This document shows, piece after piece, positions 4,455 through 32,774 of a DNA stretch of 64,000 nt; positions within the stretch are counted from its first letter, which is position 1; every line of letters begins with the position of its first letter. The position numbers and the translations under genes are program-made. Under the pieces are notes generated by a model. The model saw only the letters and a list, made by a program, of their open reading frames with translations. It had not been told where the DNA came from and did not search any database. The stretch is from Roseivivax halotolerans. GTDB taxonomy: Bacteria > Pseudomonadota > Alphaproteobacteria > Rhodobacterales > Rhodobacteraceae. The stretch spans positions 248,001 to 312,000 of the forward strand of contig NZ_FOXV01000003.1 of the NCBI RefSeq assembly GCF_900115815.1, in the 5' to 3' direction.

Positions 4455-5840
4455 TCATTCCGCCGCCGCACCCCGCGCGGCCTCACCGAGACGTGCGCCG
4501 GTCGCAGTGGCGGCCACACCCATCAGCTCGGCGTGAATATCCTCGGCCGCATCGCGTCCTTCGGCGACGGCGACCACGGTGAGATCCTCGCCCGGCGTGC
4601 AATCGCCGCCCGCCCAGATCCCGGCTTTCGACGTGCGGCCCGTCGCGGAGACACTGATCTTGCGGCCATCCATCTCGAGCCCATCTACCGGAACCAGCGT
4701 CTGGCCGATGGCGCGGAACACCTGATCCGCCGGCAGGCGCAAGGTCTCGCCCGTGCCCTTCAGTCCCGACCCGTCATCGGCGGTGTATTCGAGCTCGATC
4801 TCGGCGGCGGCACCGTTGCCGTGAATGGCCTTGGGCTGGGCGTTGCAGACAATCCGCACGCCCCTGGACGTCGCAAGATCCTGCTCGTAGCGCGACGCGC
4901 CCATCCGGTCCTTACCCCGGCGATAGGCGATCGTGACGTTCTCCGCCCCGAGGAGCTTGGCCTGTACGCCCGCGTCGATGGCCGTCATGCCGCCGCCGAT
5001 CACCACCACGTTGCGCCCCACCGGCAGGGAGGAGAGATCCGGAGACTGGCGCAGCTCGGCGATGAAATCGACGGCGGCGTCGACGCCGCCACGATCCGCG
5101 CCGTCGACATCCAATGCGTTCACGTCGGCGAGACCGACACCGAGAAAGACCGCGTCATGCTCCGCGGCGAGCCCGTCGAGCGACAGATCGCGACCGAGCG
5201 CCTTGCCATATTCCATCGAAATCCCGCCGATCTGGACCAGCCAGGCCACTTCCTTCTGCGCGAAATCATCTGTCGACTTGTAGGCGGCGATACCGAATTC
5301 ATTGAGCCCGCCCGGCTTTTCCTTGGCCTCGAAGATCGTCACGGAGTGACCCTTCATCGCGAGGCGATGCGCGCAGGCAAGACCCGCGGGCCCTGCCCCG
5401 ACGACCGCGACACGCTTGCCGGTCTCGGGCGCGCGGGAATAGGGATGGCTCTGCCGGGCCATCAGCGCGTCGGTTGCATGGCGCTGGAGGCGGCCGATCT
5501 CCACGGGCTTGCCTTCGGCGATCTCACGCACGCAGGCGCCTTCGCACAGATCCTCTGTCGGGCAGACGCGCGCGCACATGCCGCCGAGGATATTCTGGTC
5601 AAATATCGTCCGCCCCGCTGCCTCGGCCTGTCCGGTCGCGATCTGCCGGATGAAGAGCGGAATGTCGATCTCGGTCGGGCAGGCTGTGACGCAGGGCGCG
5701 TCATAGCAGAAATAGCAGCGATCGGCGGCAACGGCCGCCTCGTGCGGATCGAGCGGCTTGTGCAGATCGGCGAAGTTCTCGGCAATCTCGTCGCCGGGCA
5801 TTCGCCCGGGCACGATGCCCGGCGTGAGCGGGTCGGCCAT
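4455..5840 (-). CDS. preT: NAD-dependent dihydropyrimidine dehydrogenase, PreT subunit
   Basis: This 461-residue protein resembles the small subunit of glutamate synthase. An N-terminal iron-sulfur domain (CYFCYDAPCVTACPTEID, then MCARVCPTEDLCEGAC) is followed by two dinucleotide-binding folds, the first with VVGAGPAGLACAHRLA and the second with VVVIGGGMTAIDAG. It passes electrons from NADH through FAD and Fe-S clusters to PreA. It is first of two genes on the reverse strand and divergent from an ABC importer. The 235-base intergenic region holds a degenerate RutR-like palindrome. Confidence 0.95.
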   Translation of the reverse strand: MADPLTPGIVPGRMPGDEIAENFADLHKPLDPHEAAVAADRCYFCYDAPCVTACPTEIDIPLFIRQIATGQAEAAGRTIFDQNILGGMCARVCPTEDLCEGACVREIAEGKPVEIGRLQRHATDALMARQSHPYSRAPETGKRVAVVGAGPAGLACAHRLAMKGHSVTIFEAKEKPGGLNEFGIAAYKSTDDFAQKEVAWLVQIGGISMEYGKALGRDLSLDGLAAEHDAVFLGVGLADVNALDVDGADRGGVDAAVDFIAELRQSPDLSSLPVGRNVVVIGGGMTAIDAGVQAKLLGAENVTIAYRRGKDRMGASRYEQDLATSRGVRIVCNAQPKAIHGNGAAAEIELEYTADDGSGLKGTGETLRLPADQVFRAIGQTLVPVDGLEMDGRKISVSATGRTSKAGIWAGGDCTPGEDLTVVAVAEGRDAAEDIHAELMGVAATATGARLGEAARGAAAE

Positions 5841-5888
5841 TGGTTCCCTCCTGTTTATTCTTGCAGGAAGCCTGCCACGGAAATTTTT

Positions 5889-5904
5889 TTTATCAAACGG
5901 TAAA
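5889..5904. promoter_or_regulatory. Possible second, degenerate RutR-like operator
   Basis: TTTATCAAACGGTAAA is a partial palindrome sharing 12 of 16 positions with the stronger operator at 1890-1905. It lies 49 bases upstream of preT and within the divergent region serving the ABC importer. The match to the E. coli consensus is only 10 of 14, so this is a candidate supported mainly by position. Confidence 0.4.
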
Positions 5905-6075
5905 TTTTCTCAGTGGCATTTTTCCGGCCTGCGTCGCTCCTCGAGACGCTCGAATTGCCCGTTTTTCCATCACCAATCGTCAATGCGCCCGCAAACGCGC
6001 GCATCCCTGGGGGTAGCGCCCTGCCCGGCATCCGACTAACAATCGTCCGCAACACCGAAAACAGGGAGGGACGAG

Positions 6076-7206
6076 ATGAAGAAATGGATGCTGGGAGCTG
6101 CGCTCTGCGCGATCTCCTCGATGGCGGCGGCCGATGTGAAGGTCGGCATGATCACGACTCTGTCGGGCGGCGGCGCAGGCCTCGGGATCGATGTGCGCGA
6201 CGGCTTCCTGCTGGCACTCGAGCAAGCCGGTCGTGACGACATCGAGATGGTCATCGAGGATGACGAGCGCGCGCCGGATGCCGCCGTGCGGATCGCCGAC
6301 CGGATGATCCAGTCCGAGCGCGTGGACATCATGACCGGAATCATCTGGTCGAACCTCGCGATGGCGGTCGTGCCGGGCGCGGTCGCGCAAGGCGTCTTCT
6401 ACCTCTCGCCCAATGCCGGGCCCTCGCAGCTTGCAGGGCAAGGCTGCCACGAGAACTACTTCAATGTCGCCTGGCAGAACGACAACCTGCACGAAGCCGC
6501 GGGCGCATGGGCGAACGAGACAGGCTACTCCAACAGCTTCATCCTCGCGCCGAACTATCCGGCAGGACAGGATGCACTGACCGGCTACAAGCGGATGTAC
6601 GAGGGCGACCTCGCGGGCGAGATCTACACCGATCTCGGCCAGACCGACTATGCCGCCGAAATTGCCCAGATCCGGGCGTCGGGTGCCGACAGCGTCTTCT
6701 TTTTCCTGCCTGGCGGCATGGGGATCTCGTTCCTGAAGCAATATGCCGATAGCGGCGTCGAGCTGCCGGTGATCGGGCCCGCCTTCTCGTTCGACCAGGG
6801 AATCCTGCAGGCGGTGGGCGACGCCGCGCTCGGCGTCGTGAACACCTCGCAATGGTCCAAGGACATCGAGAACGAGACCAATGCCGCCTTCGTCGAAAGC
6901 TTCGAGGCGGAATACGGCCGCCTGCCGTCGCTCTATGCGAGCCAGGGTTTCGACACAGCGAACCTTTTGATCTCGGCGCTCGACGTGGCGGATCCGTCCG
7001 AAGACCCGGACGCCTTCCGCGAGGCGCTGCGCGCGGCGAATTTCGACAGCACGCGCGGCGACTTTGCATTCGGGCCGAACCACCATCCGGTGCAGGACAT
7101 CTATGCGCGCGAGGTTATCCAGGAGGACGACGTCTTCACCAACCGCATCATCGGCACCGCGCTCGAAGATCACGCGGACGCCTACGCCGCCGAGTGCCAG
7201 ATGTGA
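6076..7206 (+). CDS. ABC transporter periplasmic binding protein, branched-chain amino acid/amide type
   Basis: This 376-residue protein has signal peptide MKKWMLGAALCAISSMAAA, then VKVGMITTLSGGGAGLGIDVRDGFLLA, the typical opening of type I periplasmic binding proteins of the LivJ/urea family. It heads a five-gene importer operon. No sequence motif fixes the ligand. Position beside the pyrimidine-degradation genes and a RutR-like site suggests import of a pyrimidine, a dihydropyrimidine or a related amide; this is inference. A GAGGGAC ribosome-binding site precedes the ATG. A strong stem-loop follows the stop codon. Confidence 0.88.
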   Translation: MKKWMLGAALCAISSMAAADVKVGMITTLSGGGAGLGIDVRDGFLLALEQAGRDDIEMVIEDDERAPDAAVRIADRMIQSERVDIMTGIIWSNLAMAVVPGAVAQGVFYLSPNAGPSQLAGQGCHENYFNVAWQNDNLHEAAGAWANETGYSNSFILAPNYPAGQDALTGYKRMYEGDLAGEIYTDLGQTDYAAEIAQIRASGADSVFFFLPGGMGISFLKQYADSGVELPVIGPAFSFDQGILQAVGDAALGVVNTSQWSKDIENETNAAFVESFEAEYGRLPSLYASQGFDTANLLISALDVADPSEDPDAFREALRAANFDSTRGDFAFGPNHHPVQDIYAREVIQEDDVFTNRIIGTALEDHADAYAAECQM

Positions 7207-7214
7207 GCCGGCTC

Positions 7215-7239
7215 GGGCGGGGGCCTCGCGCCCCTGCCC
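7215..7239 (+). other. Intercistronic stem-loop after the binding-protein gene
   Basis: A 10-base-pair GC stem (GGGCGGGGGC pairing with GCCCCTGCCC, one G-U) with a 5-base loop sits 9 bases after the stop. No T-run follows, so it is more likely a 3-prime stabiliser or attenuator than a full terminator. Confidence 0.6.
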
Positions 7240-7286
7240 GTCCGATCTGACCCCGCCGTCCACTCCGCCTGCCGAGTCCGCTTTCC

Positions 7287-8207
7287 ATGTCCACGATCCT
7301 CGTCATCGAACAGGTCATCAACGGCCTGCAATTCGGCGTCATGCTGTTTCTCATGGCGGCGGGCCTCACGCTGATCTTCGGCGTGATGGGCCTCATCAAC
7401 CTCGCGCATGGCTCGCTCTACATGATCGGGGCCTTCGCGGCGGCCTGGGTCGCAGGGCTGACCGGATCGTTCCTGCTGGCGCTCGTCGCCGCGATGGCCG
7501 CCGCAGCGCTTGCCGGCGCGCTCGTGGAGATGGTCGTCATCCGCAGGCTCTACGCCGCCGATCACCTCGACCAGGTACTCGCAACCTTCGCGCTGATCCT
7601 GATCTTCTCGGAGGGGACGCGCTGGGTGTTCGGTTCCTTTCCGCTCTACCTCGACATTCCGGAGGCCCTGTCGGGCACCGTGACGCTGCCTGGCGGCATC
7701 GCCTACCCGCTCTACCGGCTCGTGCTGATCGGGATCGGGCTTACCGTGGGCCTCGCGCTCTGGGCACTGATCGAGCGCACGAGGATCGGAATGCAGATCC
7801 GCGCGGGCCGCGACGACAGGGAGATGATCGCGGCGCTGGGCGTCGATATCTCACGGCTTTACACGGGCATCTTCGCGCTTGGCGCGCTTTTGGCCGGGCT
7901 TGCCGGGGCGTTGGTCGGCGCGATCCAGTCGGTGCAGGTCGGCATGGGTGAGCCGGTGCTGATCCTCGCCTTCGTGGTCATCGTGATCGGCGGGATCGGC
8001 TCTATCAAGGGCGCGTTCATCGGCGCGCTACTGGTCGGGCTCACGGACACGCTGGGCGGCATTTTCCTGCCCGAGATCTTCAAGCTGTTCACCGACGCCT
8101 CGACGGCGACGCAGGCCGGGTCGGCCCTCGCCTCGATGGCGATCTACATCCTCATGAGCCTCGTTCTGATCTGGCGGCCCACCGGATTGTTTGGGCGGGC
8201 CGCATGA
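7287..8207 (+). CDS. ABC transporter permease, LivH family
   Basis: A 306-residue multi-span membrane protein beginning MSTILVIEQVINGLQFGVMLF, followed by GLTLIFGVMGLINLAHGS, the conserved first-helix signature of LivH-type permeases (the LAHG element). Around eight hydrophobic segments can be seen. It is the first of two permeases in the putative pyrimidine-locus importer. Its stop overlaps the next permease by 4 bases. It follows the binding-protein gene after an 80-base gap holding a stem-loop. Confidence 0.9.
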   Translation: MSTILVIEQVINGLQFGVMLFLMAAGLTLIFGVMGLINLAHGSLYMIGAFAAAWVAGLTGSFLLALVAAMAAAALAGALVEMVVIRRLYAADHLDQVLATFALILIFSEGTRWVFGSFPLYLDIPEALSGTVTLPGGIAYPLYRLVLIGIGLTVGLALWALIERTRIGMQIRAGRDDREMIAALGVDISRLYTGIFALGALLAGLAGALVGAIQSVQVGMGEPVLILAFVVIVIGGIGSIKGAFIGALLVGLTDTLGGIFLPEIFKLFTDASTATQAGSALASMAIYILMSLVLIWRPTGLFGRAA

Positions 8208-21199: not shown

Positions 21200-21883
21200 A
21201 TGATCGAGATCGAAAACGTCTCCAAACGCTTCACGCTGCACAACCAGGGCGGCGCGTCCATCGAGGTGATGACCGGCGCGGCGCTGTCGGTGCGACCCGG
21301 TGAATGCGTCGCGCTCACCGGCGCGTCGGGTGCCGGCAAGTCGACGCTGATGCGGATGATCTACGGCAATTACCTGGCCGAGACCGGACGGATCATGGTC
21401 GGCGGGCTCGACGTCGCCCGCGCCGATCCGCGCGAGATCATCACGCTCCGCCGGGAGACGCTGGGCTATGTCAGCCAGTTCCTCCGGGTCGTGCCGCGCG
21501 TGCCGACGCTCGACGTTGTGGCGGAGCCTTTGCGCGCGACCGGCACGGGAGTGGACGAAGCGCGGAGCCGCGCGGCAGACCTGCTGAGCCAGCTCAACAT
21601 TCCCGAAACGCTGTGGCAGCTTTCGCCGACCACCTTCTCGGGCGGCGAACAGCAACGGGTCAACATCGCCCGAGGTTTCGCTCACCCCTACCCGGCGCTT
21701 CTGCTGGACGAGCCGACCGCGAGCCTCGATGCGATGAACCGCGAGGTCGTGCTCGGGCTGATCGAGGATGCCAAGGCGCGCGGTGCGGCCATCGTCGGCA
21801 TTTTCCACGACAGCGAGGCGCGCGAGCGCGTCGCCGATCGCAACGTGGACGTCACCGCCTTCACCCCGAGGCGCGCGGCATGA
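21200..21883 (+). CDS. phnL: C-P lyase ABC-type subunit PhnL
   Basis: A 227-residue ATPase with Walker [10 protein letters not shown], a conserved YVSQFLRVVPRVPTLDVVAEPL block typical of PhnL, the signature FSGGEQQRVNIARGF and Walker B ALLLDEPTASLD. PhnL works with PhnK as the second ABC protein of the C-P lyase assembly. It overlaps phnN by 4 bases and lies 3 bases after phnK. Confidence 0.95.
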   Translation: MIEIENVSKRFTLHNQGGASIEVMTGAALSVRPGECVALTGASGAGKSTLMRMIYGNYLAETGRIMVGGLDVARADPREIITLRRETLGYVSQFLRVVPRVPTLDVVAEPLRATGTGVDEARSRAADLLSQLNIPETLWQLSPTTFSGGEQQRVNIARGFAHPYPALLLDEPTASLDAMNREVVLGLIEDAKARGAAIVGIFHDSEARERVADRNVDVTAFTPRRAA

Positions 21884-22422
21884 GCGGACGCCTCATCGCG
21901 GTTGTCGGCCCGTCGGGTGTCGGCAAGGACAGCCTCATCGCCGGGATCGTCGCCGTTCGGCCCGACGTAAGGCCCGTGCGCCGGACCATAACACGCGCCG
22001 CGGGACTTCCCGGAGAGGATTACGACGCGGTGAGCGACGCAGATTTCGAGACCCTAGAGGCCGAAGGCGCGTTCTGCCTTGCCTGGCGCGCGCACGGACT
22101 GGCCTACGGCATCCCGCGCGACGTTTTGCGGGATGTAAACGGCGGTGCCGAGAGGATCGTCAACCTGTCGCGCGGAGTTCTGGCTGAGGCCGACCGGGTC
22201 TTTCCCGCGCTTCTGGTTCTCAACGTCACCGCTCGGCGGGACGTTCTGGCCCAGCGGCTTGCAGCACGGGGCCGTGAGGATGCGGCGGATATAGACCAGC
22301 GGCTCGCACAGGCGGCCCGGCCGCTGCCGGATGGTCTTCACGCTGTCGAGATCGCCAATGACGGCCCGCTCGAGAACAGCGTCGCGCAGGCTCTTGCCGC
22401 GCTTGGCCCGGTTAAGGTCTGA
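21880..22422 (+). CDS. phnN: Ribose 1,5-bisphosphate phosphokinase PhnN
   Basis: A 180-residue guanylate-kinase-fold protein with P-loop GPSGVGKDS near residues 10-18 and a RPVRRTITRAAGLPGEDYDAVS segment typical of PhnN. It phosphorylates ribose 1,5-bisphosphate to PRPP, returning the C-P lyase ribose product to nucleotide metabolism. Making ribose 1,5-bisphosphate from the cyclic phosphate normally needs PhnP, which is not in this window. The start is set by the ATGA overlap with phnL. Confidence 0.93.
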   Translation: MSGRLIAVVGPSGVGKDSLIAGIVAVRPDVRPVRRTITRAAGLPGEDYDAVSDADFETLEAEGAFCLAWRAHGLAYGIPRDVLRDVNGGAERIVNLSRGVLAEADRVFPALLVLNVTARRDVLAQRLAARGREDAADIDQRLAQAARPLPDGLHAVEIANDGPLENSVAQALAALGPVKV

Positions 22423-22445
22423 ACGATGGCAACGCGCGCTCGAAC

Positions 22446-23666
22446 ATGGAATGGTCACGGGACCGGAAAGTGCAGGCTTTGATGAATTCACCCAAACACG
22501 TCGCGGGCACCGAAACGCCCGCCCCCACGGAGACGCTTTGCCTTGCCAATGCCCGGCTTGTGCTCCGCGACGAGGTCGTGAGCGGCGCCTTGACCGTCGA
22601 AGCCGGGCGCATCGCCGAGATCCGCCAAGGCACAGGCGTGCCCCGCGGCGCGGTCGATTGCGGCGGCGATTACGTGATTCCGGGGCTTTTCGAGCTGCAC
22701 ACGGATAATCTCGAGCGGCATATCGAGCCGCGTCCTTCGGTCGACTGGCCGCACCTTCCCGCGATACTCGCCCATGACGGCGAGCTTGCTTCCACGGGCA
22801 TCACCACGGTGTTCGATGCGCTGCGTGTCGGTTCCATTCACGGCGGCAAGGCGCGCTATGATCCCTATGCGCGCCGTCTTGCCGACGAGCTTCTCGCGCT
22901 GCGCTCCGAGAACGTCCTGCGGATCAGCCACTTCCTGCACCTGCGGGCGGAGATCTGTTCAGAGACGCTGCTCGAGGAGCTTGCCGATTTCGGACCCGAG
23001 GACAGGGTCGGCATCCTGAGCCTCATGGATCACACGCCCGGCCAACGGCAGTTCCGCGACACCACGCAGCTGAAAACCTACATCGCCAAGAAACGTGGCC
23101 TCGACGATGCGGAGTTCGAGGCGCATGTCGCCAATCTCAAGCGGCTTCAGGAAACCTATGGCGCAAGGCACGAAGCGGGCGCGGTGGCGGAGGCCGGCCG
23201 TATCGGCGCGGTCCTGGCGAGCCACGACGACACGACCGCCGATCACGTAGAGACGTCGCGCGCGCATGGCGTGCGGTTCGCCGAGTTCCCAACGACGCTC
23301 GAAGCGGCGGAGGCCTGCCGCGAGGCCGGGATCGCCGTCATGATGGGCGCGCCGAACGTGATCCGGGGCGGTTCGCATTCCGGCAATGTCGCCGCGCATG
23401 ACCTCGCGGCGGCGGGCCTTCTGGATATCCTGTCGTCCGATTACGTGCCCTCGGCGCTGCTCTATGCCGCGTTCCAGCTGGCCGAGGCGTGGAAGGATCT
23501 GCCGCGCGCCATCGCCACGGTCACCGCGCGGCCGGCCGAGGTGACCGGGCTCAAGGATCGCGGAACCCTCGAGACCGGAAAACTCGCCGATCTCGTGCGG
23601 GTGCATGCTTTGGGCGAAGTGCCGGTGGTCCGGTCAGTCTGGAGCCGGGGGCGTCAGGTCGCCTGA
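22446..23666 (+). CDS. phnM: Alpha-D-ribose 1-methylphosphonate 5-triphosphate diphosphatase PhnM
   Basis: This amidohydrolase-fold protein (406 residues from this start) contains YVIPGLFELHTDNLERHI (metal-binding HTD), SLMDHTPGQRQF, a SHDDTTADHV histidine block and SSDYVPSALL. PhnM removes pyrophosphate from the triphosphate made by PhnGHI before PhnJ acts. ATG 22482 would give 394 residues and is also possible; neither start has a strong ribosome site. It is the last gene of the phn cluster, ending 2 bases from a convergent kinase gene. Confidence 0.93.
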   Translation: MEWSRDRKVQALMNSPKHVAGTETPAPTETLCLANARLVLRDEVVSGALTVEAGRIAEIRQGTGVPRGAVDCGGDYVIPGLFELHTDNLERHIEPRPSVDWPHLPAILAHDGELASTGITTVFDALRVGSIHGGKARYDPYARRLADELLALRSENVLRISHFLHLRAEICSETLLEELADFGPEDRVGILSLMDHTPGQRQFRDTTQLKTYIAKKRGLDDAEFEAHVANLKRLQETYGARHEAGAVAEAGRIGAVLASHDDTTADHVETSRAHGVRFAEFPTTLEAAEACREAGIAVMMGAPNVIRGGSHSGNVAAHDLAAAGLLDILSSDYVPSALLYAAFQLAEAWKDLPRAIATVTARPAEVTGLKDRGTLETGKLADLVRVHALGEVPVVRSVWSRGRQVA

Positions 23667-23668
23667 CG

Positions 23669-25081
23669 TCAGGCCGCCTGCTCCCCGACAAGGCCCAACG
23701 GCTCCTGATCTCGATCGAGCTCGATCGTGAAGGTCGTCCCGCGTCCCGGCTCGGCGGTGAACCAGATCCGGCCCCCGTGCGCGTCGACGATACGCTTGGC
23801 GATACTGAGGCCGAGGCCGCTGCCCTCGTGGCGGCGCGTTTCGTACTGAGCGGCCTGCTGGAATTCCTGGAAAACCTTGTCATGGAATTCCTCGGGGATG
23901 CCCTCCCCGTTGTCGGAGATCGCGATCCGCGCCTTGTCGCCGCTGGCTTTGAGCGACACGCGGACATGCCCCGCGCCTTCCTTCGAGAACTTGGCGGCGT
24001 TCGACAGAAGGTTCGAGATCACCTGATCGAAGCGGCTCGGGTCGATACGCGACCAAAGAGGCTCCGAGGGCAGATCGAGATAGATCTCGGCCTTCATGCT
24101 TTCGGCGAAGGGACCGAAGCGGTCGACGATATCGCGCAGCATGGCGCCAAGGTCGGCAGCCTCGGGGTTGATCTCGATCTTGCCCGATTCCGCGCGCTGC
24201 AGAAGAAGAAGATCGCTGACCAGAGTGGCAAGACGATGGGAGTTGCGCCCGGCGACGTCGAGTGGACCTTTCATGCGGTCCGGCACCGGGCCGAGCGCGC
24301 CGGAGTTCAGCACGTCCAGCGCGCCCTTGATGGATGTCAACGGCGTACGCAATTCGTGGCTCACGGTTGCGAGAAATTGCGTCTTTGCGCGGTATGCCGC
24401 CTTTGTGCGCTCATGCTCCTCCTCGAGCGCCTTTCGACTTTTCAGATGCGCTGTATAGCTCGTCAGGAAGCTGCGCGCGCATTCCAGAAGGAACATTGTC
24501 ACGTAGATCGTCGTGAAGAAGTGCAGCCAGGTCTCCGAACCGATGCCGTCGCCGGTTACCAATATATCGCGCAGCGGAATGAACAGGATCGCAAGCACGT
24601 AGATGATGAGCCGCAGCGCCAGGATCGGCAGAAACTGGTGATTGTTGATCGCCGCGAAAATCGCGGCCGAGAACAGAACGATCATCGGCAGGAAGTGCCC
24701 GCTTTCGGGGCCCTGCAGTTCTGCCAGTGAGATCGCGAAGTAAGAGATCGCCATAGCACTGATAGCAGTGCTGATATACAGCATCGCCACCGCGCGCCGC
24801 ACTTTGTGGACGTCCCAGCACCGTACGGTGAGAATACTGCGGACCACGAAGGCGTCGATCGTCTCGGAGACCAGCGTCACGCAGAAGAAGATCGCGCCGA
24901 GCTGCCAGCTATAGTACGATGACGTCAGAACGAGCATCGTGACATAGATGATCAGCCGCTGCCCAAAGAGGCGCTGGCCCACGCGCGCGTAGTCGCGCAA
25001 CCGTCTCCGGTTGGACCAGATTTCGTCCTCACGGGCCAGAAGTGCCGGTAATTTCACCAGGATCTCTCCGGTTGTGGTCAT
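23669..25081 (-). CDS. Membrane sensor histidine kinase
   Basis: A 470-residue kinase. An N-terminal membrane module of about five to six hydrophobic segments spans roughly residues 42-203. A short coiled linker and the phospho-acceptor helix FLATVSHELRTPLTS (His242) follow. The ATPase domain has N-box DQVISNLLSNAAKFS, G1 DNGEGIPEEF and G2 GSGLGLSIAKRIVDAHGG. No PAS or HAMP domain is evident, so signal sensing is probably by the membrane module. It is divergent from a LuxI-type synthase gene, and a response regulator follows that gene, suggesting one signalling locus. The pairing is inferred from position. Confidence 0.93.
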   Translation of the reverse strand: MTTTGEILVKLPALLAREDEIWSNRRRLRDYARVGQRLFGQRLIIYVTMLVLTSSYYSWQLGAIFFCVTLVSETIDAFVVRSILTVRCWDVHKVRRAVAMLYISTAISAMAISYFAISLAELQGPESGHFLPMIVLFSAAIFAAINNHQFLPILALRLIIYVLAILFIPLRDILVTGDGIGSETWLHFFTTIYVTMFLLECARSFLTSYTAHLKSRKALEEEHERTKAAYRAKTQFLATVSHELRTPLTSIKGALDVLNSGALGPVPDRMKGPLDVAGRNSHRLATLVSDLLLLQRAESGKIEINPEAADLGAMLRDIVDRFGPFAESMKAEIYLDLPSEPLWSRIDPSRFDQVISNLLSNAAKFSKEGAGHVRVSLKASGDKARIAISDNGEGIPEEFHDKVFQEFQQAAQYETRRHEGSGLGLSIAKRIVDAHGGRIWFTAEPGRGTTFTIELDRDQEPLGLVGEQAA

Positions 25082-25110
25082 TTCGGCAATACAAACCGAG
25101 AACTCGCCCT

Positions 25111-25161
25111 CAGATAGTTCATAATACCATTGAACCTATCTGCAATTGTGTCCAGATTAGG
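25111..25161. promoter_or_regulatory. Inverted repeats in the kinase/luxI divergent promoter
   Basis: CAGATAGTTCA (25111-25121) and TGAACCTATCTG (25131-25142) form an inverted repeat with one unpaired base around a 9-base centre. A third copy, CAGATTAGG, sits at 25153-25161. The repeated CAGAT(T)AG unit in this 133-base region looks like a regulator binding site, but does not match a canonical lux box. Confidence 0.5.
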
Positions 25162-25214
25162 GAAAAAACGTGTGTGGTGTGGAAAACTCAATCACCTACG
25201 CCTGAGGCTCCCGA

Positions 25215-25955
25215 TTGTCATTTCAAGAGCGCAAAGCCGACATTGCATTTCCGGAACTCGAGCCGGAACTGCCGTCAGAGAAAAAAACCAGAAATCCGGC
25301 ATTTTTAAGGAATGTCGGATCAAGAGTCCTGCTCGCGCAGCATCCACGCCTCAAAACCAGTGTTATCTCGGTCCATAACCAACATCTTCACGGAGAGCTC
25401 TATCTCGAGTTTCTCCGCGCTCGAAAGCGCGTATTCATCGAACAGAAGAAATGGGACCTGCCCTTCGAGAAGGATCTCGAATTCGATCAATACGATACGC
25501 CACAGAGCCGTTGCGTCATCATCCACGAATTCGGCGAGGTGCTCGGCGGATTGCGCCTTTTGCCGACGACTGCACGCTGCGCGTGTTACACCTACATGAT
25601 CCGGGACGCACAGCGCGGGCTTCTGCCGGACATTCCGGATTATATCCTCTACGAAAAAGCACCGGTCGCAGATCATATCTGGGAAGGCACGCGGCTCTTC
25701 GTCTCGCAGGACATCTCGGCTGAAAGACGGGTCGGCGTGCAGACGCGCCTGATGCTCGCCATGGCCGAAACCGCCGTTGAGGCGGGCGCGACGCATGTCA
25801 TCGGGCTGGTGCCGGCCCTTTATCAGCGCTGGGTGGCACGCCTCGGGATCGGAGCACTGCCGCTCGGACCCAAGATGAACATCGACGGGGAGAACACGCA
25901 GGCCGCCGTGATGCATGTCGCAGCGGTCGCCAAAAACGGGAAGACCCACCATTGA
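25215..25955 (+). CDS. LuxI-family acyl-homoserine-lactone synthase
   Basis: A 246-residue protein carrying the invariant LuxI set with normal spacing: Arg70, Phe74, Trp80, Asp91 and Asp94 (in EFDQYD), Arg114 (in GGLRLLPT), Glu157 and Arg160 (in WEGTRLF). Such enzymes make N-acyl-homoserine lactones from S-adenosylmethionine and acyl-ACP. The only start in frame after the upstream stop is TTG at 25215, with GAGG 7 bases before it. This gives about 45 extra N-terminal residues, low in recognisable structure, compared with classical LuxI. No luxR lies nearby; the neighbours are a sensor kinase and a response regulator. Confidence 0.85.
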   Translation: MSFQERKADIAFPELEPELPSEKKTRNPAFLRNVGSRVLLAQHPRLKTSVISVHNQHLHGELYLEFLRARKRVFIEQKKWDLPFEKDLEFDQYDTPQSRCVIIHEFGEVLGGLRLLPTTARCACYTYMIRDAQRGLLPDIPDYILYEKAPVADHIWEGTRLFVSQDISAERRVGVQTRLMLAMAETAVEAGATHVIGLVPALYQRWVARLGIGALPLGPKMNIDGENTQAAVMHVAAVAKNGKTHH

Positions 25956-26058
25956 TGTTTGGGCAGGCAAGAATCCGCTCCGGCATCATTTGGCCGGGAA
26001 TATATCACAATTCGGCCTCAAAACGCTGGCTCTTTGGAAACAGTTTACGCAACTTTAA

Positions 26059-27045
26059 ATGAAAGTCGTGCCCATGCGAATTCTGGCAGTAGACGACGAC
26101 CCCATCGTTCTGGATCTTCTCGAGGTTGCGCTGACGGGAGCTTCGCTTGACGATCTGACCCGTGCGACCTCTGCGGAGGAAGCGCTCGATCTCATCGACG
26201 AGACCGAGGAATCCTTCGAATGTATCCTTCTCGACATCAACATGCCCGGCATCGACGGCATCGAGCTGTGCCGCAGGGTTCGGGAATATCCCGAATACGA
26301 GACGGTTCCGATCATCATGATCACCCGCCTTGATCACCGCAGCTACCTCGAGAAGGCGATCCGCATGGGCGCCTCCGACTATGTCGTGAAGCCCTTCGAC
26401 GGCACCGAGGTCGTCACCCGCATCGAGCTTGCCGCGCTGCGCCGGGCTCGCGACGCCGACCAGATCCCGGCACAGGGGCCGATCCCGCTGACCGATCCCG
26501 TTTCGCGCGCCGATCGCGAATGCGCCGAGTTCATCGAGCTGCCCGCCGCGCTCTCGTTCGAGACGATGAAATCCAGCATCACCTTCATTCCCGAAGAGAC
26601 GCTGCTGAAGTTCAGCGCGATCAAGATCGCCAATTTCGATGCGCTGCGTGGTTCGCTCTCGCGGGACGAGCTCTCTCAGGCGATCATGCGGGTGGGCCGT
26701 AGCGTCGCGACCCGTCTGAAAGGCACCGACTTCATGATGGCATACGCGGGCGCAGGCACGATCGTTGCGGTCGTGCGCGGCCTGCACCAGACCTCGGCCA
26801 GCGCGCTCGGCTCCTCTTTGCAGGCGGCGCTGCTCGAGACCGTGCCCACGGAGGCTGTCATCCCGGAGATCGTGGTCGCGACCGCGGGCCCGTCCAACAC
26901 GGTCCACCGCCAGGATCGGATGACCCGGATCCGCTACGCGATCTACTGCGCCGACGAGGCTGCCCGCGAGACATGGTCCTTCGGCAAGCAGATCCGCGCG
27001 ACCGTCGCCGCGGCCGAAGAGCTGGAAACGGAACGGACGCACTGA
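26059..27045 (+). CDS. Response regulator with degenerate GGDEF-like output domain
   Basis: This 328-residue protein has an N-terminal receiver domain (about residues 7-125) with acidic pocket VDDD, phospho-acceptor Asp59 in LLDINMPG, Thr89 and Lys111 in VVKPFDG. The C-terminal part (about 170-320) reads like a diguanylate cyclase fold: FSAIKIANFDALRG, then a helix, then TDFMMAYAGAGTIVAVV. The GGDEF signature is replaced by AGAGT, so cyclase activity is unlikely. It follows the luxI-type gene by 103 bases. An alternative start is the in-frame ATG at 26074. Confidence 0.85.
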   Translation: MKVVPMRILAVDDDPIVLDLLEVALTGASLDDLTRATSAEEALDLIDETEESFECILLDINMPGIDGIELCRRVREYPEYETVPIIMITRLDHRSYLEKAIRMGASDYVVKPFDGTEVVTRIELAALRRARDADQIPAQGPIPLTDPVSRADRECAEFIELPAALSFETMKSSITFIPEETLLKFSAIKIANFDALRGSLSRDELSQAIMRVGRSVATRLKGTDFMMAYAGAGTIVAVVRGLHQTSASALGSSLQAALLETVPTEAVIPEIVVATAGPSNTVHRQDRMTRIRYAIYCADEAARETWSFGKQIRATVAAAEELETERTH

Positions 27046-27090: not shown

Positions 27091-27150
27091 GTGATTTGAC
27101 TTTTTCGCTCATGTCGCCACGCTTTGGTGCATCCCGACAGGAGCCCTTGC

Positions 27151-27915
27151 GTGCGGACCGCCCTCGTTCTCAGCATTGCCTGCCTTTCGAGTTCGGCCGC
27201 AGCGCTGGAGCTGACGATGACCGGCAGCTACGCGCTCGCCCGACCGTCGAGCCTCGACTACGACCCGACATTCTGCGGCCTCTGGATCGCCAATGAAGGC
27301 CCCGAAGCCGTTCTGGTCACGCTCCAGGGAGACGAGCTTCGGCGGATCGGTTCGGATCTGAGCAGGATAAAGGCGATCTCGATCGAAGGAGACGGTCTCA
27401 TCGTCGCGGACGGTCTGGGGCTCTTTCAGCGCCTGACGAAGGATGGCGAGCCCCTCGCAGCGCCATTCCGCATCTCGAGCGGCTGGGCCGATACCGAAGG
27501 AATCGCGATCGACGAGGATGGCAGCCTCATCACCGTCGAGGATGATCCCGAATATCTCTCATGGCTGTCGCCGGACGGCGACGTGCTGCGCCGGATCGAC
27601 ACGATGCAACTCGACCCGCCCTTGTCGGAGGCGCAAGGCATCGCCCGCGATCCGCGCACGGGGCATCTGTTGATCGTGGACGATTGGGAAGGCACCAACA
27701 GCCTTTACGAATTCGACGCAGAGGGCACGTTGATCGCCACGCAATCGCTGGTGCCGTTTGGCACGGATCCCGAAGGCATCGCGATCCGTCCGGGTTCGGG
27801 CCAGCTTTTCGTCGCGTTCGACATGGGCGCACGGATCGCGAGCTTCGACTATGTCCCGACCCTGCCGCCCGGATCGGAGCCGCTGCCGCCAGGCGCGGAT
27901 TGCATGATGTTCTGA
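27151..27915 (+). CDS. Exported beta-propeller-like protein (SdiA-regulated/SMP-30-like)
   Basis: Starting at GTG 27151, 7 bases after AGGAG, the protein has 254 residues and a signal peptide (VRTALVLSIACLSSSAAALE). The mature part has repeated strand patterns such as DTEGIAIDEDGSLITVEDDPEYLSW, EAQGIARDPRTGHLLIVDDWEG and DPEGIAIRPGSGQLFVAFD. These look like propeller blades of the SdiA-regulated or gluconolactonase-like families. The longer frame from 27124 has no ribosome site and would spoil the signal peptide. A periplasmic location is likely; substrate unknown. Confidence 0.78.
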   Translation: MRTALVLSIACLSSSAAALELTMTGSYALARPSSLDYDPTFCGLWIANEGPEAVLVTLQGDELRRIGSDLSRIKAISIEGDGLIVADGLGLFQRLTKDGEPLAAPFRISSGWADTEGIAIDEDGSLITVEDDPEYLSWLSPDGDVLRRIDTMQLDPPLSEAQGIARDPRTGHLLIVDDWEGTNSLYEFDAEGTLIATQSLVPFGTDPEGIAIRPGSGQLFVAFDMGARIASFDYVPTLPPGSEPLPPGADCMMF

Positions 27916-29668: not shown

Positions 29669-30937
29669 TCACGCGGGCGCGGGCTCTGCCTCGGGCTTGA
29701 GAGTGCGCGCAGCCAGCCAACTGAGCGCCACGAAAACGGCCGCCGTCGCAAGGCACAGGGGCAGCCCCCCGATCTGGTAGCTGAGCCCGGACATCAGCGT
29801 GCCAAGAAGGCGACCGGCGGCGTTGGCCATGTAGTAGAAGCCCACATCCATCGTCACCCGCTCCACCCCCGCGAAATTGAGGATCAGGTAGGAATGCAGC
29901 GCCGAGTTGACGGCGAAGATCGCGCCGAAGACCAGAAGGACGACAACGATGGTGACGGTAAGCCAGGTCGCAGGCTCTCCCGCGATCCAGACGAGAAGCG
30001 CCAGCGCGGCAGGCAGCGCGAAGAGCCGCCCGGTCCATGCCTGCGCCTCGGGCACCAGCTCCGCCTCGGGGCGGTCTGCGGCGCGCAGGAGCTTCGGGGC
30101 GGATGCCTGCACCGCTCCGTAAAGAATCGTCCAGACGGCCATGAAACTGCCGATCATGAAGAATGCCGCGCGGTTGCCCTCTTCGGTGCCGTCGGACAGC
30201 ACCGCGTAGAAGTAGATCGGGATGCCGACCACGAACCAGACATCGCGCGCACCGAAGAGGAAGACGCGCGCGAGAGAGAGCCGGTTGATGTTCTGGTCCT
30301 TGGAGATCACCTCGGAGAACTTCGCATCCTTGCGCCCGACCGGCAGCCCGGACGGCATTTTGAGCGCGATCGCGGCGAGGATCACCGACAGCACCGCCGC
30401 CATCGCCAGAACCGAAGCGGTGAAGCCAAGCAGCGCCAGCAGGCCAGCGCCCAGAAGGAAGCCCACACCCTTCACCGCATTCTTGGACCCCGTCAGAACC
30501 GCGACCCATCGGAAGAGCCCGCCTTGCGCCTTGGGCGCGAGCGTCTTCACGGCACTCTTGGCCGAGGTCTTGGCAAGATCCTTGGCGACGCCCGATGCGC
30601 CTTGCACCGCCATGACATAGGCGACCGACGCCCAGAGCGCCCATCCCGGATCGAGCGCGGCAAGCGCCAGCAGCGCCACGACCTGAAGGCCAAGCCCGGC
30701 ATACAGCGTCGAGGTCATCCCGAACCGCGCCGCGATCCAGCCCGCGCAAAGATTGGTGATGATCCCGGCAATCTCGTAAAGGATGAAAAGGTAGGCCAGT
30801 TGCACGGGCGAGAAGCCGAGCGTGTGGAAGTGCAAGAGCACCAGCATCCTCAGCGCGCCATCGGTGAGCATGAAGGCCCAATAGGCCGCCGTCACCGCGA
30901 TATAGGCGGAAAGCCCGTCCTGCCGCGCCGCGCTCAT
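29669..30937 (-). CDS. arsJ: Organoarsenical efflux MFS permease ArsJ
   Basis: A 422-residue major facilitator protein with about 12 membrane segments, starting [24 protein letters not shown]. The central loop [22 protein letters not shown] is characteristic of ArsJ. With the adjacent GAPDH it forms a known arsenate resistance pathway, in which GAPDH makes 1-arseno-3-phosphoglycerate and ArsJ exports it. The start at 30937 is set by the ATGA overlap with gapdh. It is last in the arsRC-gapdh-arsJ operon. Confidence 0.92.
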
Positions 30938-31932
30938 AGGGACGCGCCCACCATGCGTGCCACGTCGACGAGGCGGTAAGCATACCCCATCTCGTTGTCG
31001 TACCACGCATAGATCTTGGCCTGCGTGCCGTTCACCACCATCGTCGAGAGCGCATCCACGATGCCCGAGCGGGTGTCATTGGTGTAATCGGCCGAGACGA
31101 GCGGGCGCTCCTCGTAGCCGAGAATGCCCTTCAGTGGGCCCTCTGCGGCCTCCTTGAAGAGCGCGTTCAGCTCCTCCGTGGTGGTCTCGCGCTCCAGTTC
31201 GAAGACGCAATCGGTGATCGAGGCGTTGAGGAGCGGCACGCGGACCGCGTGCCCGTTGAGACGTCCCTTGAGCTCGGGATAGATCAATGTGATCGCCGTG
31301 GCAGACCCCGTGGTCGTCGGAATGAGCGAGGTCAGCGCGGAGCGCGCACGGCGGAGATCCTTGGCGGGCCGGTCCACGATGGTCTGCGTGTTGGTGACAT
31401 CGTGGATCGTTGTGATCGAGCCGTGCCGGATGCCGATCGCCTCTTGCACGACCTTCACGACCGGTGCGAGGCAGTTCGTCGTGCAGGAGGCCGCGGTCAC
31501 GATCCGGTGCTCCGCGGGGTCGTAGATGTCATGGTTGACGCCGTAGACGACATTCGCCGCATTACCGTCCTTCACGGGCGCGGAGACCACGACCTTCTTC
31601 ACACCAGCCTCGAAATACGGGGCAAGCTTGGCCTCGGTCTTGAAGACGCCGGTGCAGTCGATGACCACGTCGACGCCGTCCAGCGGCAGATCCTCGATCC
31701 GACGTTCGGAATGGACCGGCAGGCGCATGCCGTTCACCGTGATGCTGCCTGCATCATGGGCGAACTCGGCGTCCCAGCGGCCATGAACGGAATCGAATTC
31801 CAGAAGATGCGCGTGCATCTCGGGATCGCCGACCGCGTCGTTGATCCAGGCGATCTTTGTGCCTTGGTCGATCAAGGGTTTCAGCGCAAGTTTTCCGATA
31901 CGGCCAAGGCCGTTCAGCGCGTAGGTGGTCAT
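30934..31932 (-). CDS. ArsJ-associated glyceraldehyde-3-phosphate dehydrogenase
   Basis: A 332-residue type I GAPDH with nucleotide-binding motif NGLGRIGK, catalytic Cys150 in AASCTTNC, His177 and the C-terminal [14 protein letters not shown]. Its position between arsRC and arsJ, with 4-base overlaps on both sides, marks it as the arsenic-specific copy and not the glycolytic enzyme. It can use arsenate instead of phosphate to form 1-arseno-3-phosphoglycerate, which ArsJ then exports. Confidence 0.92.
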
Positions 31933-32774
31933 GCGGGCTCCCCGGCATTGGTCTGGCCGATGTCATCGACGGCGTGTTGCAGCGAGATCCGGTCGAGCGT
32001 GCCGATGGGCAGCGCGACGAAGGCCTGAATGCGATTGCGAAGGGCGCCATAGGCGTGCTGGAAGGCGAGGCTCTTCTCGGCATCGGTGCCGACCGTCTTC
32101 ACCGGGTCGGGCATACCCCAATGCGCGCTGACAGGCTGGCCTGCCCAGGCCGGGCAATCCTCGTTTGCCGCGCGGTCGCAGACGGTAAAGACGAAATCGA
32201 ATTGCGGCGCGTCCGGGCCTTGGAATTCCTCGACATTCTTGGCGCGCAGCGCGTCGATGTCGTAGCCTTTCTTGCGAAGCGTCTCCACCGCGAAGGGGTT
32301 CAGCTCCGAATAGGGCCTGGTGCCCGCCGAATAGACGTTGAAGCGATCTCCCCCCTCCCGGCGCAGGATCGATTCAGCGAAGATCGAGCGGGCGGAATTG
32401 CCCGTACAGATAAAGAGAACGTTGTATTTGCGGCTGGGCATGATCGCGTTTCCTTCTGGCAGGGGGAATGCGGATGGCCCGCAGAGATCCGGGCGGCCCC
32501 GGCAGCACTCCGCGAACAGGAAATCCATCAATCCCCGCGATCTCGTCGCATCGAGCCGGTAAAGCAGCGAGCGACCCTCACGGGACTGAGTAATCAGACC
32601 GACGTGACGCAGGGATGACAGGTAGGTGGAGGCGGTATTGGCGCGCGCGCCGATCGCGTCGGCCAGCTCGCCCGCCGGAACGGCATCGGGGTAGCGGCGC
32701 ACAAGGAGCCGAAAGAGCGCGAGGCGCTGCGGATGGCCGAGGACGGCGAGCTGATCTGCGTGGTACGATTCCAT
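31929..32774 (-). CDS. ArsR-ArsC fusion: arsenic-responsive repressor joined to LMW-PTP-type arsenate reductase
   Basis: This 281-residue two-domain protein has an ArsR winged helix at residues 1-85 followed by the As(III)-type cysteine cluster CCRGRPDLC (Cys90, Cys91, Cys98). From residue 112 a low-molecular-weight phosphatase-type arsenate reductase begins, with the catalytic loop CTGNSARS (Cys123-Arg129) and [13 protein letters not shown]. It therefore combines sensor and enzyme. There is no stop or frameshift at the junction. It leads the operon and overlaps gapdh by 4 bases. A palindrome covers its start codon, and no ribosome site is visible, so the message may be leaderless. Confidence 0.9.

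Follow-up and report, generated by a model that had tools for sequence, protein, structure and literature searches.

The locus described here lies at positions 23669–27045 of the window, a 64,000-nucleotide stretch of the Roseivivax halotolerans genome (NCBI RefSeq assembly GCF_900115815.1, contig NZ_FOXV01000003.1, positions 248,001–312,000), and encodes a membrane histidine kinase (HK), a LuxI-family acyl-homoserine lactone (AHL) synthase and a response regulator (RR). The original prediction for this stretch placed the synthase divergent from the kinase and upstream of the regulator, and Pfam searches and the gene coordinates bear this out. In the textbook view, lactone quorum sensing depends on LuxI plus LuxR, the exception being LuxN and AinR of Vibrio. 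The HK gene (23669–25081, minus strand) specifies 470 aa with HisKA (1.2e-16) and HATPase_c (3.6e-33) domains; H242 is its phospho-acceptor, and we propose that the protein is the AHL receptor. Across a divergent intergenic region (25082–25214, no strand assigned) lies luxI (25215–25955, plus strand; 246 aa), the product of which scores 48.6 bits against PF00765, the curated cut-off being 24. The LuxI frame has no ATG ahead of the conserved domain, and the TTG at 25215 is the most likely start, because the extension gained in this way holds an FPxL motif (FPEL, 25248–25259, plus strand, from the alignment) that is common to relatives. The closest LuxI in the comparison, from Roseivivax sp. (L142), shares 64% identity with that of the window (239 columns). 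The residues W, D..D, R and E-x-x-R, catalytic in LuxI enzymes, are all present in the alignment, so that the prediction of an intact enzyme stands as well. The RR gene (26059–27045, plus strand) encodes 328 aa comprising a receiver (Response_reg, 1.1e-26), in which D12, D13, D59, T89 and K111 are present, and a degenerate GGDEF domain. The predicted lack of a luxR gene also holds: there is none among the six neighbouring genes (Pfam) and none within ~7–8 kb (profile search), and the luxR adjoining luxI that marks a classical LuxI-LuxR pair is missing.

A search for the LuxI domain in 198 genomes of the family, with each listed genus represented by one genome, gave a match in 125. Seventy-nine loci of relatives were fetched with up to ~8 kb on each side, some shortened by contig ends; they represent all LuxI matches above ~140 bits, except for a split LuxI in one genome (G022; 143.9 bits in two pieces). 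Weaker matches were not scored for neighbours, although 20 of them served as outgroups in the larger and eight in the smaller of the two trees described below. With the window, and counting tandem copies at two loci, this gave 82 LuxI sequences whose neighbours were scored by profiles. An HK with the same sensor domain accompanies 18 of the 82, with no LuxR within the flank, while 63 lack such an HK and are directly preceded by LuxR on the same strand; for one (L062) a contig end truncates the upstream side, and at none are HK and LuxR both near. The 63 are sister LuxI-LuxR pairs of Rhodobacteraceae, whose synthases belong to the same LuxI family (~43–55% identity). Among the 79 loci from relatives, 17 have the HK near LuxI, and the pairing is therefore more than chance. 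An RR that shares the C-terminal domain of the window's RR is present within the fetched flank of 16/18 HK-linked and 0/63 LuxR-linked LuxI.

At the genome level, the same matches above ~140 bits give 18 genomes with HK-linked and 62 with LuxR-linked LuxI among the 198, and none with both, which would have a chance of ~8e-4 if the two forms were independent (L062 being counted as LuxR-type). The sensor profile finds strong matches in 25 of the 198 genomes and weak ones in three more, and 18 of the 25 strong sensor genes are LuxI-linked. The RR is present in all 25 strong-sensor genomes versus 22 of the 173 others, a count that is possibly low since at most 15 candidates per genome were scored in the first look. 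Among 385 sampled genomes of Alphaproteobacteria the sensor is found in two, both Rhodobacteraceae. In one genus after another the HK and LuxI genes remain neighbours, in many cases together with the RR gene.

Scanning named genomes, some of which overlap the 198-genome set, yielded at least 165 confirmed sensor loci, of which 80 were taken; the counts that follow refer to these 80. LuxI is in the fetched flank of 55, the RR of 50 and both of 37. The three-gene set is thus conserved as an HK-LuxI pair, with a third member that is frequent but not constant. LuxR occurs in the flank of two loci, neither with LuxI, and hence in 0/55 of the HK-LuxI loci. Among the 55 listed, 48 are divergent, five have HK then LuxI, one LuxI then HK, and one is convergent. 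The record titles name mostly genera or bins of Rhodobacteraceae, Roseobacteraceae or Paracoccaceae; the exceptions among those listed are L186, a metagenome bin titled Bacteroidota, and L191 and L216, titled as Alphaproteobacteria only. A gap of ~0.7–1.1 kb separates luxI from HK in at least 20 loci, of Shimia and similar genera; in the two of these gaps that were read (L173, 7307–7765; L193, 7373–7762) there is an open frame of ~130–150 aa with no Pfam match. As a separate observation, in two sensor-kinase loci with no luxI in the flank LuxR-type genes adjoin the kinase, as if both receptor kinds were retained together (L117: HK 6197–7702 and LuxR-type frame 5538–7784, both on the minus strand; L213: 3700–5051); one of the two has a LuxR-type gene on the same strand and the other two LuxR-type frames.

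The distribution of the two arrangements over the LuxI phylogeny is simple. In a tree of 153 rows a single change separates HK-linked from LuxR-linked LuxI, and likewise in a tree of 69 rows built with more care: 39 of the 69 HK-linked rows, 22 of the 63 LuxR-linked (drawn from 62, one long row being excluded) and eight outgroups. With the outgroup included, HK-linked LuxI is paraphyletic, as if kinase pairing came first. It looks as though pairing with the kinase is older than pairing with LuxR, but in an approximately unbiased (AU) test a single HK-linked clade is not rejected (p 0.172), and the outgroup branches in the 153-row tree are long. The FPxL extension is found in 25/31 and 11/13 rows of two HK-linked clades and in 1/25 of a third, in 0/63 LuxR-linked rows and in 1/20 outgroup rows.

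The membrane sensor domain of the HK (24467–25027, minus strand) consists of six helices that precede the kinase core in an AlphaFold model (pLDDT 78.9, 18 sequences); hydropathy scanning gives four clear peaks, so the number six is that of the model. H129, P132, N147, H148, R157, Y161 and W185, as well as the residues round H242, are invariant in 18 kinases including that of the window. The sensor has no match among PDB sequences, and in Pfam and NCBIfam it finds isolated matches, each for one of the 18 members (best 3e-4, DUF6056). A structure search with the HK returned, in its best 50 rows, kinases and related proteins over ~220–285 columns and none aligned to the sensor domain. It had been suggested that the kinase might sense the lactone in the manner of a LuxN-type receptor. 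We rejected homology of the sensor to LuxN: compared with a profile of four LuxM-linked kinases, it gives a single local match of 11 columns that is not significant (hhalign probability 0.3%, E 0.21), and what is left of the suggestion is a functional likeness at best. The sensor appears to be a family of its own, new in the literature examined. We also considered co-divergence of LuxI with the sensor in particular. Over 69 loci LuxI-sensor distances do correlate beyond the kinase core (partial r 0.565 vs 0.246), but in the window's own group the signal is not particular to the sensor (0.34 vs 0.45 for the kinase core), which speaks against a receptor role; we do not lean on this measure.

The RR resembles a diguanylate cyclase of the PleD/WspR type that has lost its catalytic motif. 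Its AlphaFold model (pLDDT 84) shows a C-terminal part with the order beta-alpha-alpha-beta-beta-alpha-beta-alpha, and the best whole-chain Foldseek matches are WspR, DgcR and PleD, with TM-scores of ~0.35 that are low, we think, owing to a different setting of the two domains. A profile of the C-terminal domain matched 11 PDB sequences, nine of them GGDEF proteins (best E 1.4e-4), while Pfam finds nothing in this domain of the window's RR and one weak GGDEF_2 match among 20 aligned domains. Domain order and predicted fold are shared with PleD and WspR, but GxGx-type residues replace the GGDEF motif: the hairpin at this position (26743–26760, plus strand) reads YAGAGT in the window and mostly SYRGxGxF in relatives, and GG(D/E)EF is absent from 20/20 aligned RR sequences. 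Since the catalytic acidic residues are lost, catalysis, and with it diguanylate cyclase activity, is not expected. Pfam detects no DNA-binding domain in the RR of the window or of nine relatives. An apparent fusion of RR and HK, suggested by an open frame of 831 aa in L065, was discarded, as its first half is in the wrong frame and the RR lies in another; the RR alignment was redone without it.

We read the locus as a quorum-sensing module whose lactone, the product of LuxI, is recognized by the membrane HK instead of by LuxR, and give this a probability of roughly 55%. The HK is the best candidate for the lactone reader because LuxR is absent at the same luxI genes, HK and RR are frequent company there and the phosphotransfer residues are intact. 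In such a module LuxI would make an AHL that binds within the membrane sensor domain or close to it, and shifts the balance of kinase and phosphatase activities of the HK, in one direction or the other. The phosphoryl group would then pass to D59 of the RR, the degenerate GGDEF domain of which may serve as the output; it would probably bind a partner or a nucleotide, and not synthesize cyclic di-GMP or bind DNA. More tentatively, and with slightly less than even odds, we propose as a joint reading that the HK represents a second class of membrane-kinase AHL receptor, which evolved independently and has so far been seen in Rhodobacteraceae, with docking via FPxL and an output through the dead GGDEF domain that needs no LuxR, serving a LuxI lineage that switched between HK and LuxR receptors. 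The FPxL segment of the synthase, in the two clades that have it, may dock to the kinase complex. Should the HK indeed read a lactone made by LuxI, a single lineage of synthases would have made use of two receptor classes that are unrelated to each other, and receptor replacement could be studied in close relatives. Some 'orphan' luxI genes of marine roseobacters would be explained, and for these a receptor, a sensor domain and an output protein would be open to test.

Several observations weigh against lactone reception by the HK. The counts given above are not independent observations, because one switch between HK and LuxR explains them. Seven of the 25 strong sensor genes, and 25 of the 80 named sensor loci, have no such LuxI in the fetched flank, and three genomes (G050, G159 and G169) hold an unlinked sensor kinase plus a LuxR-linked LuxI. 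The RR is absent from the flank at 2/18 HK-linked loci (L034 and L036, where a copy lies elsewhere in the genome) and at 18 of the 55 named HK-LuxI loci. The sensor resembles no AHL receptor with which it was compared, and a LuxR solo kept in the genome could bind the signal.

The alternative that best survives is that the HK responds to another cue (redox state, a cofactor or a molecule from the environment, for example) and acts with the RR to gate the expression or activity of LuxI, so that signal synthesis is the output of the pathway and not its input. Sensor genes away from luxI, just counted, fit such a role, and a cofactor could be bound by the two invariant histidines of the membrane part, H129 and H148. 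It is not obvious how an RR in which Pfam finds no DNA-binding domain would directly control the luxI promoter, and gating leaves unexplained that LuxR is missing exactly where the HK is present; we consider this alternative unlikely, if by no means negligible. Scanning of 25082–25214 found no sigma-70-like promoter between HK and luxI. CtrA sites and lux boxes before luxI were dropped as candidates, since neither pattern was enriched over shuffled sequence at 39 of 69 loci, namely those whose upstream stretch the pattern could place. The original prediction had offered both ideas, two-component control of signal synthesis and the kinase as receptor. The second appears the likelier one from the genome comparison, because HK and LuxI stay together and either HK or LuxR, never both, is near LuxI.

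The main rival receptor for the lactone is a LuxR solo. The window genome has one LuxI above the Pfam cut-off and one weak match below it, and its only LuxR-type gene lies on another contig (G000:C38:48363-49154, entry L003). If this protein reads the lactone, HK and RR would be neighbours with a separate task, and it is in favour of such a division that a match to the solo exists in 17/18 genomes with HK-linked LuxI. But such matches are widespread (141/198 genomes, including five without a LuxI match: G041, G056, G088, G124 and G127) and so are not tied to this synthase, and the conserved HK-LuxI linkage is left unexplained; we regard a solo receptor as improbable. Least probable by far is that HK and luxI are not functionally coupled and owe their linkage to having been transferred horizontally together: related HK-luxI loci on Sulfitobacter plasmids indicate that the pair can move, but the pair persists through all four orientations among the 55 loci, whereas unrelated passengers would tend to be lost. 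The plasmid of Sulfitobacter sp. SK025 (L232) carries a divergent HK-luxI pair, with the kinase annotated as 'HAMP domain-containing' and a cytochrome P450 gene adjoining; its 18.6-kb stretch contains no such RR, which counts against the three-part module, and no LuxR.

An HK as lactone receptor has been proposed before in the literature, and the original prediction of a candidate undescribed system is not supported. The following draws on portions of the papers cited. Cude and Buchan 2013 (PMC3824088) reported HKs upstream of orphan luxI genes of the I-delta group in roseobacters (topologies H, I and J), with no more than 26% identity to LuxN, and proposed a similar, LuxN-like system. Like these, the window luxI is an orphan with no adjacent LuxR and with an adjacent HK. 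ISM_03755 of Roseovarius nubinhibens ISM is assigned topology I and is the only LuxI of this strain in their table. The same strain provides our locus L153, and the window LuxI groups with its LuxI in HK clade 1. In topologies H and I the HK is given in the same direction as luxI, while we read the ISM locus as divergent. The portions of PMC3824088 covered here contain no degenerate-GGDEF RR, no exclusion of LuxR in one LuxI lineage and no sensor family; these, the RR being frequent, together with the LuxI extension, are new relative to the literature examined. On the comparative genomic evidence, the locus appears to be a real, conserved quorum-sensing variant, of which an outline was proposed in 2013, and we add a likely third part, the RR, and strong comparative support. 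Among the open-licence PMC papers examined, PMC3824088 is the only one we found that discusses an HK beside an orphan roseobacter luxI, and we found no experiments on such a kinase. ISM and Sulfitobacter sp. EE-36, described as having only orphan LuxI, give AHL-like masses in results called preliminary (PMC9769649); we infer that the orphan of ISM is the LuxI of L153. Another paper counted 17 luxI solos in roseobacters (PMC3907830).

Other known systems share single features with this locus. LuxM-LuxN and AinS-AinR of Vibrio likewise have, as proposed here, a membrane receptor that reads an AHL (PMC5007282), and the four genomes examined have LuxM-type genes close to such kinases. Their synthase is LuxM-type (PF17327), however, whereas here it is LuxI-type (PF00765), and PF17327 has no match in the window genome. 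LuxN is a histidine kinase with nine helices (PMC5007282); the window kinase has no receiver domain by Pfam and a sensor that is not homologous to those of LuxM-linked kinases. CqsS, also a membrane kinase, is predicted to have six helices (PMC5007282), as in our HK model, but the synthase CqsA and the signal differ. For Dinoroseobacter shibae, a figure legend of PMC6473078 suggests that a lactone might be detected by CckA or another sensor; this is hypothetical, concerns a different kinase and belongs to a network that includes LuxR proteins, and the portions covered name no luxI-linked kinase. In Actinomycetota, a luxI solo near sasA, in a set of sensing genes with a sensor histidine kinase among them, is described in PMC13136126. 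Here too luxI is near an HK, but the phylum is another.

Beyond the three genes, phosphonate (carbon-phosphorus lyase) genes phnL and phnM lie at 21200–23666, and phnM ends two bases from the end of the HK gene, tail to tail. The gene that follows the RR (27124–27915) has weak Phytase-like and SdiA-regulated Pfam matches, and with ~80 bases between the two it may be co-transcribed with the RR. Further along, at 29669–32774, is an arsenic set comprising an ArsJ transporter, a GAPDH-like frame and a frame resembling an ArsR-phosphatase fusion, the latter two of which were assigned by eye.

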